A stretch of DNA of 64,000 nucleotides from contig NZ_JAEQBB010000004.1 of assembly GCF_018616375.1 (NCBI RefSeq), forward strand, positions 1 through 64,000, read 5' to 3'. Of the stretch, positions 3,382 to 15,278 are shown piece by piece (the stretch's first letter is position 1; each line of letters opens with the position of its first letter). Below the pieces are notes generated by a model, which ran no database searches, had not been told where the DNA came from, and saw only the letters and a list, made by a program, of their open reading frames with translations. The DNA is from Exiguobacterium sp. J17977 (GTDB lineage Bacteria; Bacillota; Bacilli; Exiguobacteriales; Exiguobacteriaceae). Position numbers and translations under genes: made by a program.

Positions 3382-3414
3382 CACTCGTCCAATTTAAAAA
3401 TCCATTAGAAAAAG

Positions 3415-3505
3415 TGCCACACTTCCTCACGCCGGTATTACCCGGATCGAGTCATAAGGGATTGGAGCCATGCTCACATCTCAGCCGAAGCACCCCTAGT
3501 GTAGT
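3415..3505 (-). promoter_or_regulatory. TPP riboswitch (THI element)
   Basis: On the minus strand the conserved blocks occur in the right order. They are AGGGGTGCTTCGGCTGAGATG at the 5' side (here split: GGGGTGC, then GCTGAGATG), then GACTCGATCCGGGTAATACCGG-type sequence (key part CCGGGTAATACCGGCG), then GAGGAAGTGTGG. ACACT and AGTGT close stem P1. The aptamer lies between a strong sigma-A promoter and an intrinsic terminator ahead of ykoF, so TPP should switch the transporter operon off. Confidence 0.95.
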
Positions 3506-3535
3506 CCAATGTATGCGGTTGTCTATGCAACGAAA

Positions 3536-9035: not shown

Positions 9036-9140
9036 CATATCGATATCTTGAGTGAACGAGAGACCTGGCTCTATGACTTCACAGCAACCTGCTTCGGCAA
9101 GGTGCTACTTCCAGCAAGGCAGTTTGCCTTGGCCGATATG
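9036..9140 (+). promoter_or_regulatory. SAM-I riboswitch (S-box) upstream of msrA
   Basis: S-box landmarks appear in order: ATCTTGAGTGAACGAGAGAC, then CTGGCTCTATGAC, then CAGCAACC, then GGTGCTACTTCCAGC. CATATCG (9036-9042) and CGATATG (9134-9140) close P1. It is followed at once by an intrinsic terminator, so bound SAM should stop transcription ahead of msrA. Low SAM, as under methionine starvation or oxidation, should switch it on. Confidence 0.9.
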
Positions 9141-9144
9141 ACAG

Positions 9145-9178
9145 AGCGCTCATGTCGATGACATGGGCGCTTTTTTTT
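9145..9178 (+). terminator. msrA: Terminator of the SAM riboswitch
   Basis: Twelve-base arms AGCGCTCATGTC and GACATGGGCGCT around GAT, followed by eight T. Confidence 0.92.
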
Positions 9179-9204
9179 GGAAATTGATTGAGGGGGACTT
9201 ATTA

Positions 9205-9717
9205 ATGGAAAAAGCAACATTCGCAGGCGGCTGTTTTTGGTGCATGGTGACGCCGTTCGAGGAACAACCTGGCATCGAGTCGATCGTATCCGGTTATACG
9301 GGAGGTCACGTCGACGACCCGACGTATGAACAAGTGAAGACCGGGACGACGGGACATTATGAGGTCGTCGAGATCACGTTCGACCCGACGCTATTCACGT
9401 ATGAGCGACTGCTCGAACTGTATTGGATTCAGACCGATCCGACCGATGACGGCGGCCAGTTCCAAGACCGCGGTAGCCAATATGCGCCGGCCATCTTCTA
9501 TCATACGGAGGAGCAGCGCATCGCGGCCGAAAAGAGCCGGGACGACCTCGCGGCGAGCGGACGCTTCAAACAGCCGATCGTCACGAAAATCTTGCCGGCT
9601 GACACGTTCTATCCGGCCGAAGAGTATCATCAAGACTTCCATAAAAAAAATCCGGCCCACTATAAAGAGGACCGGAAGAAATCTGGGCGCGACGCATTCA
9701 TCGAGCAAGCCTGGTAA
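9205..9717 (+). CDS. msrA: Peptide-methionine (S)-S-oxide reductase MsrA
   Basis: 170 residues. The MsrA active-site signature GCFWC is at residues 9-13 with catalytic Cys10, followed by [13 protein letters not shown] and a [16 protein letters not shown] block typical of the family. It reduces methionine-S-sulfoxide in proteins and free methionine, with thioredoxin as electron donor, in the cytoplasm. An in-frame ATG at 9163 lies inside the terminator stem and is rejected; the ATG at 9205 follows GAGGGGGACTT. The gene is single and controlled by the SAM riboswitch just upstream. Confidence 0.95.
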
Positions 9718-13068: not shown

Positions 13069-13098
13069 AAAAACACGGTGTCTCGGAGGACACCGTGT
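13069..13098 (-). terminator. Terminator of the cation exchanger gene
   Basis: Minus strand arms CACGGTGTC and GACACCGTG around CTCCGA, followed by five T. Confidence 0.88.
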
Positions 13099-13102
13099 CA
13101 GA

Positions 13103-14104
13103 TTAACCGATGAAGATGAAGTAAGACGAAGCGAAGTAGACGAGCACGACGAGCACTGACGGCAAGATGTAACGCAGTTTCGACGTCACGTCTTTACGAA
13201 GGAGCGTATACATGACGAGCACCGACAAGATGGTAATCCCAATCGCTGTCACCAAGTGAGACGCCGACACGTCGGCCAGAATCGAACCGTTGCGGTAAAA
13301 CACGTCCGACATGGCGATGATGAGCATGTTAAAGATGTTGCTTCCTAAAATCGAACCGAACGCCAAGTTGACGTTTCCAAGCTTCAAGGCGACGAAGACG
13401 GCGACCGCTTCCGGGAGCGAGGTCGTCGCGGCAATCAAGAAGCTACCGACGAAGCTCGAACCGAGGCCCGTGACGACGGCGATTTGATCACCTAGCACCG
13501 AGAGCGCTGTCCCGGCCGCCATGATGACGATTGCGGCGATGATGAAGCCGATGACCGCACGTTTGACCGTAATCGAACTCGTCGCACTAGCGCCGACTTC
13601 TTGTACGGCCTCATGGGCAGCTTCGCGCTCAACGGCGGGTTGTTGCGGTCGTTTCCCGATATAGTAAATCCCGATTCCGTACAATGCCGCAATCAATAGG
13701 GCATCAATCCCGATGCCGAGAATCGTGAAATCGATGCGGACGATCAGTGCAATCATCGTGACGAGCGTCAACATGAGACCGAGACCGGCCGTATAGAGAT
13801 GATCTCGGTTTGCCTCATTGAACAAGCGTTTCTGACGATAGAAGAGATCGAACATCGCCAAGATGAAGATGTTGAACAAGTTCGACCCGAGCATGTTCCC
13901 GATGGCGATGTCCGGGTTGTTGATCATGACGGCCGAGACGCTTGTCGTCACTTCCGGAAGCGAGGTTGCACCGGCTAGTAACACGGTCCCGACGAGCATC
14001 CCGCTCATCGTCGACTTCTCACTGATGACGTCAGCGTAAGTCGAGAGTTTCATGGCGGCATACACGGTGATGGCAGCGGCCAAGATGAAATAAATAAATA
14101 CCAT
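13103..14104 (-). CDS. CaCA-family cation exchanger under a Mn2+ riboswitch
   Basis: 333 residues, about ten membrane segments in two inverted halves. The paired alpha-repeats are visible: GATSLPE (45-51) with GNMLGSNLFN (69-78), and ATTSLPE (226-232) with GSILGSNIFN (250-259). A charged loop (about 150-180) separates the halves. The family swaps Ca2+ for Na+ or H+ (YrbG-like). The yybP-ykoY riboswitch upstream (14171-14270) responds to Mn2+ in characterised cases and turns genes on. This paralogue therefore most likely exports Mn2+ or is used under Mn2+ stress. That last step is inference. It is monocistronic. Confidence 0.88.
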   Translation of the reverse strand: MVFIYFILAAAITVYAAMKLSTYADVISEKSTMSGMLVGTVLLAGATSLPEVTTSVSAVMINNPDIAIGNMLGSNLFNIFILAMFDLFYRQKRLFNEANRDHLYTAGLGLMLTLVTMIALIVRIDFTILGIGIDALLIAALYGIGIYYIGKRPQQPAVEREAAHEAVQEVGASATSSITVKRAVIGFIIAAIVIMAAGTALSVLGDQIAVVTGLGSSFVGSFLIAATTSLPEAVAVFVALKLGNVNLAFGSILGSNIFNMLIIAMSDVFYRNGSILADVSASHLVTAIGITILSVLVMYTLLRKDVTSKLRYILPSVLVVLVYFASSYFIFIG

Positions 14105-14133
14105 TTGAATAAATCTCCCCTTTTCGTGAATTC

Positions 14134-14180
14134 AAAAAGACCTTTTTATGGACGCCGAAAAAGCATCCATAAAAAGGTCT
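14134..14180 (-). terminator. Terminator of the Mn2+ riboswitch
   Basis: Very long minus-strand hairpin: AAGACCTTTTTATGGA and TCCATAAAAAGGTCTT arms, then TTT. Its first arm is the 3' end of the aptamer, so aptamer closure and terminator exclude each other. Confidence 0.9.
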
Positions 14181-14270
14181 TGCGGACTTGGTAAGAAGCT
14201 CGATGGACCGAGTGCGTTGCACCGTAATGACGACCCATCGACCACAGCTGTGGTCGCTACTCCCCCTCTT
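14171..14270 (-). promoter_or_regulatory. yybP-ykoY (manganese) riboswitch
   Basis: On the minus strand it opens with GAGGGGGAGTAGC, contains GGTCGTCATTAC, and closes with CCGCAAGACCTTTTT. These are the conserved blocks of the yybP-ykoY class, which senses Mn2+. The closing GCAAGACCTT overlaps the 5' arm of the terminator at 14134-14180. This gives an ON switch: metal binding holds the closing helix and prevents termination. Confidence 0.92.
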
Positions 14271-14282
14271 ATGTTCACGACG

Positions 14283-14311
14283 AATATATCACGTTACAAT
14301 TCATTTGACAA
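14283..14311 (-). promoter_or_regulatory. Sigma-A promoter of the exchanger leader
   Basis: Minus strand TTGTCA, 17 bases, TATATT. It lies directly after the stop of the HD-domain gene. Confidence 0.85.
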
Positions 14312-15166
14312 TCAATTGACCCTTAAATGGGCGACGACGTCATCGACTGGCATCGCCGTCCGGTAAGACAGTTCATCAATCGCTTGGAGTATCGGGAGCG
14401 GCAACGGTTTCCAAAGCCCCGCTTCTTTCAATTGTGCGGACAAGCCGTCGAGCTCCGGTTGATTGACGTCCGTGCCGTGGCGATAGCCTTCGCGCATTGC
14501 CTCGTGTAACTCATAGGCGGTCTGACAGAGCGTCGTCGTCTCTTGAAGCCAGTCCTCTTCGTGAAATCCGTGCTGTATGACATCAAACAATTTCCCGAGT
14601 TTCTCGAACCGCTCGTCGGCGACGCCGTAAAACAATAAGTTCAGCTCGGTCTCGAATGACTCGATGAGCGTCGTCGTCTGTCTAAACGGTCGGAACGCTT
14701 GGAGCAGTTCGTGATAATACCATGACTGGTCGCGGAGCGGTCGTCTGAACCGGTCCCACACTTGTCTCCCGGCAGACTCGACGTCGAGTCGAATCGAACG
14801 AAGGTTATGTAACTTGTCCGCCGCCAAGAGCGCCACTTCATCATACTGCATCGTCTGGACGTGTTGAACCGTCATCCGTTTCCGCTCTTCCCATGACAGG
14901 TGCTTCCCGGGTTCGGACACTGCTTCGACGAGTCGTCTCACTACGCTTCCGAATCGTTCCTCGATCTCTTCAGGTGTCGTCAACGTGTCTTCAAGCAAAT
15001 CGTGGAGCAGGCCGGCCGCCACGACCGGGACCGGTTGCCGGTCTTCAACGAGCAACATCGACACGGCGACGGGATGGGTCAAGTAGGGAATATTCGTTCC
15101 TTTTCGAAACTGTCCGTCGTGTCGGACGGCCGCGAATCGGAGTGCCTCTTCAATCAACTGGTGCAC
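14312..15166 (-). CDS. HD-domain protein, small alarmone hydrolase-like
   Basis: 284 residues. The N-terminal 150 residues match the RelA/SpoT hydrolase (HD) region: RHDGQFRKG, the PYLTHPVAV block with the first ligand, LLHDLLED with the HD pair, and LLAADKLHNL with the last aspartate. No synthetase, TGS or ACT domain follows; the C-terminal part is a helical region of unknown role. It may hydrolyse (p)ppGpp or another nucleotide. The start is GTG at 15166, preceded by GAAGGAGGAATCGCC; the upstream ATG at 15205 lacks such a site. Confidence 0.75.
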   Translation of the reverse strand: MHQLIEEALRFAAVRHDGQFRKGTNIPYLTHPVAVSMLLVEDRQPVPVVAAGLLHDLLEDTLTTPEEIEERFGSVVRRLVEAVSEPGKHLSWEERKRMTVQHVQTMQYDEVALLAADKLHNLRSIRLDVESAGRQVWDRFRRPLRDQSWYYHELLQAFRPFRQTTTLIESFETELNLLFYGVADERFEKLGKLFDVIQHGFHEEDWLQETTTLCQTAYELHEAMREGYRHGTDVNQPELDGLSAQLKEAGLWKPLPLPILQAIDELSYRTAMPVDDVVAHLRVN

Positions 15167-15278
15167 GGCGATTCCTCCTTCAATGGGTTGATAAAGCGTC
15201 CCCATCCTTTACCCGTGCCTAGTCCTATCTACTCACATCTGTTGTTAAAACATAGGGTAATGGTCCCGGTTAGACGAA

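Follow-up and report, generated by a model that had tools for sequence, protein, structure and literature searches.

We found that a gene for a two-repeat CaCA cation exchanger, in a 64-kb stretch of Exiguobacterium DNA (the whole stretch that was analyzed, hereafter the window), lies behind a genuine yybP-ykoY riboswitch aptamer, and we propose that this Mn2+-responsive transcriptional ON switch controls an exchanger which is a candidate for exporting Mn2+, a reading to which we give a probability of roughly three in four. The class of the aptamer, its overlap with a terminator, the conservation of the arrangement and the identity of the gene were each established by computation. Mn2+ as the ligand and the ON direction are what the riboswitch class leads one to expect, and Mn2+ as the substrate and export as the direction of transport are suggested by the regulation together with a precedent from Bordetella. 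The family is commonly annotated as Ca2+/Na+ antiporter, and the leader says that the relevant ion is probably Mn2+; this probable role covers Exiguobacterium and many salt- or alkali-loving Bacillota.

Promoter, leader and terminator of the exchanger gene

On the minus strand, the locus consists of a promoter, the aptamer, an intrinsic terminator, a purine-rich ribosome-binding region, the 333-aa ORF and a terminator-like hairpin (Table 1). Given the hairpin 3' of the gene, the transcription unit looks monocistronic. The preliminary description of this DNA had called the promoter perfect, which was overstated: it matches the consensus at 10 of 12 positions and is near-consensus, and 0.9 sites of equal quality would be expected by chance within the 1.4 kb scanned. 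The same promoter (TTGTCA-17-TATA(T/G)T) nonetheless precedes the aptamer in 19/19 Exiguobacterium genomes.

Table 1 Features of the exchanger locus within the 64-kb window
Feature	Position	Strand	Evidence or description
Promoter	14283..14311	-	-35 TTGTCA (14311-14306), 17-nt spacer, -10 TATATT (14288-14283), TG ahead of -10
yybP-ykoY (Mn2+) riboswitch aptamer, CaCA-linked subtype	14172..14269	-	R1 covariance model, covariation, L3
Intrinsic terminator (expression platform)	14137..14181	-	20 pairs then U-run; 5' arm overlaps P1 3' strand
CaCA exchanger gene, 333 aa, candidate Mn2+ exporter	13103..14104	-	PF01699, two repeats, AlphaFold2/Foldseek
Terminator-like hairpin 3' of gene	13072..13099	-	11 pairs, U-run

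The ORF downstream of the exchanger encodes a glycosyltransferase. The gene directly upstream (14312-15205, minus strand), whose end abuts the exchanger promoter, encodes an HD_4-domain protein (PF13328) which resembles the hydrolase half of RelA/SpoT. Elsewhere in the window there is a SAM riboswitch (9040-9141, plus strand, 67.1 bits) just 5' of an ORF (9163-9717, plus strand) that looks by eye like the methionine sulfoxide reductase MsrA, and a TPP riboswitch (3407-3507, minus strand, 66.2 bits).

We assigned the leader to its class by taking advantage of a covariance model (R1) built from 21 RF00080 aptamers of other Bacilli, 19 of them above the cut-off and 2 just below it. No CaCA locus was included in this training set, whose downstream ORFs look TerC-like or P-type ATPase-like. 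The canonical set comprised 30 loci, 28 of which gave an aptamer by a pattern demanding the L1 core and the end of P1 (L041 and L050 were dropped); the canonical alignment contained 21 of these 28, with 7 near-copies or long ones left out. By eye, and with Pfam for 3 of them, 26 of the 28 canonical switches precede a TerC-like gene and 2 a P-type ATPase-like gene. R1 scored the window leader at 44 bits (a rough E of 1.1e-10), and the next best score in the 64 kb was 9.5 bits. The leader was also the only match of R1 at E<=1 in its own genome, where scoring covered 150 of 579 first-look candidates. Thus, the earlier assignment to the yybP-ykoY class is borne out by a model that had seen no CaCA-linked aptamer, as well as by covariation and by loop L3. 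A second model (R2), trained on the window aptamer plus 34 of the 37 aptamer-bearing CaCA loci described below, gave the window 100.3 bits at 14168-14271, the window being part of its training set.

Covariation was assessed in 35 CaCA-linked aptamers from 12 genera, as named in their records. In these, 97.2% of the cells were paired versus 91.7% in shuffles, and 74 cells were changed on both sides versus 19.9 in shuffles; both-side changes fell in 12 of 33 pairs, and 0/500 shuffles reached as high. Four of the five measures were reached by 0/500 shuffles, and the fifth, further pair types, was reached by 72/500, which counts against our reading. None of the slid versions of the structure came close in the same 35 sequences. 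Chance origin of the leader, which we considered as well, is ruled out by its conservation in 19/19 genomes of the genus together with the both-side pair changes across genera.

The loops in P1 and P3 are described as forming the metal pocket of the class (PMC9495176). Both metal-site loops of the class, L1 (GGAGUA) and L3 (CGUCA...), were present, with L3 here starting UCA. L3, which was not demanded by any extraction pattern, is 7 nt long and starts with UCA in 56/56 aptamers (21 canonical plus 35 CaCA-linked), and it reads UCAUUAC or UCAUGAC in 16/21 canonical and 31/35 CaCA-linked aptamers, the window having UCAUUAC. L1 is GGAGUA in 56/56 aptamers; it formed part of the extraction patterns, and R1, which makes no demand for L1, arrived at the identical set of 37 among the 80 loci. 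The two sets differ in P3, in P4 and in the pairs adjoining the GACC strand. We conclude that the leader is confirmed as a genuine yybP-ykoY aptamer, of a CaCA-linked subtype.

Rfam's own model for the class gave a different picture. The preliminary description had named the lack of an RF00080 match above threshold as grounds for rejecting its proposal, and taken literally this is the outcome that we obtained: RF00080 had no match at its gathering score in the 64-kb window, none at E<=10 on the 361-nt leader stretch and none at E<=0.001 across the window's own genome. In 9 of the 38 genomes of the order there were sub-threshold matches (E 1.5e-8 to 9.3e-5); all nine genomes are Exiguobacterium, and the coordinates put every match immediately 5' of the CaCA gene. 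The gathering score was reached by 0/38 genomes, though 19 carry the leader. Among 299 Bacilli, 144 genomes had an RF00080 match at E<=0.001, with 24 of the 144 above the cut-off. We read the miss as poor sensitivity of the 177-position model for the CaCA-linked subtype, whose low score probably arises because P3 and P4 have drifted in sequence; R1 and the sub-threshold RF00080 matches both identify the leader as a homologue, by sequence and by structure, of true members of the class. The Rfam gathering score therefore hides a whole aptamer subtype. As for other Rfam families, there were seven weak matches, to four microRNA and three bacterial sRNA models, none anywhere near its cut-off; six of them fall inside the terminator hairpin (14121-14187) and the seventh covers 14132-14258.

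The second claim to hold up was that the terminator shares its 5' arm with the closing strand of the aptamer. The 5' arm, AAGACCUUUUU..., includes the 3' strand of helix P1, so that the P1 3' strand is common to the aptamer and its expression platform, as in the class at large, and leader plus terminator fold better than 200/200 shuffles (z -4.4). The double use of the strand GACCUUUUUAU, as closing strand of the aptamer and 5' arm of the terminator, recurs in the riboswitch-bearing leaders: with the window included, 33 of 38 have the overlap by pattern and the remaining 5 by eye, which amounts to 37/37 of the other riboswitch-bearing named loci (32 by pattern and 5, with G-U or one-base variants, by eye).

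From this architecture, a mechanism can be proposed. At low Mn2+, the nascent strand AAGACCUUUUUAUGGAUGC would leave the closing helix P1 and pair into the 20-pair terminator, and transcription would halt before the gene. At high Mn2+, the ion would dock at loops L1 (GGAGUA) and L3 (UCAUUAC) and keep P1 closed, which would block the terminator and allow the exchanger to be made; the exchanger would then expel Mn2+, driven by Na+ or H+. In Lactococcus lactis, a P1.1 strand is reported to be common to the switch and its terminator (PMC11087558), and the Halalkalibacterium halodurans ykoY switch is reported to give Mn2+-dependent read-through in vitro (PMC10898510). Against the ON direction, a review on Clostridioides difficile describes these riboswitches as OFF switches (PMC11477304).

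Distribution of the leader among CaCA genes

In 19/19 Exiguobacterium genomes, the leader stands upstream of the CaCA gene, with its core lying 151-165 nt ahead of the start codon. In the sister genus, PF01699 had a match in 0/19 genomes and RF00080 likewise in 0/19, the latter a weak test since RF00080 also misses 10/19 leaders of Exiguobacterium; the 13 sister-genus genomes among those listed had no R2 match.

Beyond these genera, we examined a named set consisting of the best 80 of 506 loci. Of these 80, 37 carried an aptamer recognized by R1, each time immediately 5' of the gene and in the same orientation, a fraction which thus applies to close relatives only; there was no further R1 match at E<=1 in the 548,634 bases of these loci. 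One more locus (L071), where R1 scored weakly 5' of the gene (14.5 bits, E 0.16), was left uncounted. The 12 riboswitch-bearing genera, all Bacillota, are Exiguobacterium, Jeotgalibacillus, Halalkalibacter, Alkalihalobacillus, Alkalihalophilus, Alkalihalobacterium, Bacillus, Chryseomicrobium, Tetzosporium, Sediminibacillus, Alteribacillus and Salibacterium. In the same 80-locus set, the loci from Planococcus, Bhargavaea, Lentibacillus, Oceanobacillus and Marinococcus were without the aptamer. That 43 of the 80 loci are without it means that the exchanger also works under other control, which speaks against our preferred reading. Among the 299 Bacilli, at least 19 of 35 subfamily genes (E<=1e-50, a gene in two pieces being counted once) had an R2 match just upstream, judged by coordinates and among the matches listed. 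As for a single or a multiple origin of the pairing within the subfamily, a quick tree needs at least nine label changes, of which well-supported branches force only two.

Jeotgalibacillus offers variations on the arrangement. In Jeotgalibacillus soli, two tandem CaCA genes, which we infer to form one operon, stand behind one aptamer. At five Jeotgalibacillus loci (L096, L102, L107, L114 and L115), aptamer-free CaCA copies stand behind an ORF of 440-445 aa whose C terminus looks by eye like that of a CorC/CNNM-type metal exporter.

The pairing also occurs outside the subfamily. In another Bacilli genome (L173:915-2074), a CaCA protein 28% identical to the window's, identified as such in a Pfam run, has a canonical aptamer directly 5' (R1, 77.3 bits), so that aptamer and CaCA gene came together, or stayed together, in more than one branch. 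As possible proteobacterial counterparts for comparison with the Bordetella gene discussed below, ten plasmid-borne records hold relatives with 28.8-40.0% identity to the window protein; in the 6 of them that we examined, neither Rfam at E<=0.1 nor R1 gave a match.

The same searches brought up aptamers next to genes of other kinds. At L176:1050-2900, a canonical aptamer (R1, 74.6 bits) has a distant CaCA gene on one side and a PAP2-family gene on the other, and it is the PAP2 gene that it would control. At L200, L201, L202, L206 and L208, an aptamer near locus position 1500 (R2, 59.6-66.1 bits) precedes an ORF of 229-275 aa, conserved within one genus and kinase-like by eye, which is not a usual Mn-transport target; the L201 ORF had no Pfam match at 0.001. 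At L207:1500-2356, an aptamer (R2, 59.4 bits) precedes a putative neutral zinc metallopeptidase gene (PF04298, E 4e-86).

The exchanger and its probable ion

That the gene encodes a two-repeat CaCA exchanger, as had been stated at the outset, was verified on several counts. Pfam Na_Ca_ex (PF01699) matches the ORF in two stretches (E 3.2e-33), and the alpha-repeats read GATSLPE...GSNLFN and TTSLPE...GSNIFN, i.e., the (T)SLPE and GSNxxN signatures of CaCA proteins. An AlphaFold2 model (pLDDT 83.2) had NCX_Mj as its best Foldseek match, and all 18 PDB matches at E<=0.001 were to NCX_Mj, CAX, VCX1 or YfkE; as modeled, the protein has the CaCA fold. It scored 101.7 bits against the NCBIfam model for calcium/sodium antiporters, TIGR00367, whose cut-off is 179.65, and is a relative rather than a member of that hypothetical equivalog. 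The protein is 97% identical to that of strain TNDT2 and 96% identical to that of E. chiriqhucha RW-2.

NCX_Mj, from Methanocaldococcus jannaschii (PDB 3v5u, 5hxr and others), has the CaCA fold in common with the window protein at ∼20% identity. Of the ten positions that we take to be the ion site of NCX_Mj, compared by residue and spacing, nine are kept: Thr, Ser, Glu, Ser and Asn in repeat 1, and Thr, Ser, Glu and Ser in repeat 2. The tenth, Asp240 of repeat 2, corresponds to Asn259. With nine of ten sites kept, nothing in the protein points to Mn2+ over Ca2+, which also weighs against our preferred reading. We considered Asn in place of Asp240 as a marker and ruled it out; it was present in 86/86 subfamily proteins compared, with or without the leader (L123 was dropped as too short), and is shared by both distant Bacilli proteins compared. 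No alignment column separated riboswitch-linked from unlinked exchangers among the 86 proteins. Because no column separates them and the Asn is universal, selectivity is unreadable from the protein sequence.

The case for an Mn2+ exporter therefore comes from elsewhere: the regulation, the lack of any match to the Mn2+ exporter family MntP (PF02659) in 38/38 genomes of the order, and BP3410 of Bordetella pertussis together suggest this role. BP3410 is reported to be a CaCA protein induced by Mn2+ through a yybP-ykoY riboswitch, Ca2+ having no effect on its expression (given there as "data not shown"), and B. pertussis with a nonfunctional or deleted BP3410 is reported to contain ∼five-fold more Mn than with a functional copy (PMC8546581). 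TerC genes were present in 38/38 genomes of the order; the window's own genome has two, neither near its single R1 match. It also encodes three CDF proteins, which could be alternative Mn2+ exporters and to that extent count against the proposal.

The strongest competing explanation holds that the exchanger acts mainly as a Ca2+/Na+ (or Ca2+/H+) antiporter and that the switch, answering to Mn2+ or also to Ca2+, turns the gene on so as to adjust Ca2+ or Na+ and not to expel Mn2+. The conserved ion-site residues and the structural matches to NCX_Mj, CAX, VCX1 and YfkE would fit this explanation, as would the 43 loci without an aptamer and the many hosts which, judged by their names, are salt- or alkali-loving. 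It also has a parallel within the riboswitch class: the Streptococcus mgtA switch is reported to bind Ca2+ more tightly than Mn2+ in vitro, with Mn2+ activating more, and to control a Mn2+/Ca2+ ATPase tied to Ca2+ efflux (PMC9495176), an example that goes against our reading. We nonetheless consider a chiefly Ca2+-directed role unlikely, as the Bordetella CaCA protein lowers cellular Mn and is described as not induced by Ca2+ (PMC8546581), the 28 canonical switches precede, by eye, TerC-like or P-type ATPase-like genes, and the order has no MntP match.

Two further alternatives are less likely. Export could serve supply and not detoxification, with Mn2+ delivered through the membrane for the metalation of secreted enzymes; MeeY, a TerC protein of Bacillus subtilis under this riboswitch, is reported to act in this way (PMC12096827), and YkoY is reported to support secretion in H. 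halodurans (PMC10898510). We regard this as improbable here, given that TerC homologues stand alongside in all 38 genomes of the order and that the adjacent HD-domain and glycosyltransferase ORFs give no link to secretion. More improbable still is that the CaCA-linked aptamers are a specificity variant preferring another divalent ion. A review has suggested that ligand-changed variants of the class exist and may sense other ions (PMC7266159), and the CaCA-linked aptamers do depart from the canonical set in P3, in P4 and beside the GACC strand, where the adjoining pairs differ; L3, however, is 7 nt long in both sets and mostly identical in its bases, and L1 is GGAGUA in both. The candidate Mn2+ exporter thus stays our best reading, as it had been in the preliminary description, which did not name the Bordetella precedent.

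On a wider view, CaCA exchangers may have been recruited several times as Mn2+ exporters, in the Bacillota subfamily, in the L173 branch and in the line of the Bordetella protein, a proposal on which we hold the odds to be even. If true, the name "Ca2+/Na+ antiporter" would mislabel entire branches of the CaCA superfamily, and the RNA leader would be a tool to tell Mn2+ from Ca2+ exporters. Closely related CaCA proteins, some behind the leader and some not, provide natural pairs for work on ion selectivity.

Comparison with known systems

The pairing of a yybP-ykoY switch with a CaCA gene is less novel than the preliminary description implied. The kind of system is already known from BP3410, the CaCA Mn exporter described under a yybP-ykoY riboswitch (PMC8546581). 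In full-text searches, apart from the Bordetella case, we came across no report that places a CaCA gene of Exiguobacterium or of any other Bacillota behind this switch, and the gene lists of the founding papers on the riboswitch, Dambach 2015 and Price 2015, may mention CaCA proteins; the genome paper on E. chiriqhucha discusses other riboswitches, its main text containing neither "manganese" nor "yybP" (PMC5399880). New here are an aptamer subtype that stays under the Rfam threshold, the spread of this subtype among Bacillota, and the occurrence of the same switch at a second CaCA branch that is only distantly related.

According to its published description, by which we compare it, BP3410 resembles the window's system in having two Na_Ca_ex domains, one promoter and a yybP-ykoY leader (PMC8546581). 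It differs in belonging to a Betaproteobacterium and in having a leader that is found by Rfam (E 8.5e-15; PMC8546581), whereas the Bacillota subtype falls below the RF00080 cut-off. The switches of L. lactis and H. halodurans, as described, have the same aptamer class, a P1 strand within an intrinsic terminator and an expected Mn2+ ON response (PMC11087558, PMC10898510); the H. halodurans ykoY gene encodes a TerC protein (PMC10898510) and the gene here a CaCA protein. Relative to the canonical Bacilli set, the window aptamer has different P3 and P4 sequences and a P1 that is richer in A and U (AAGAGG with CCUUUUU).
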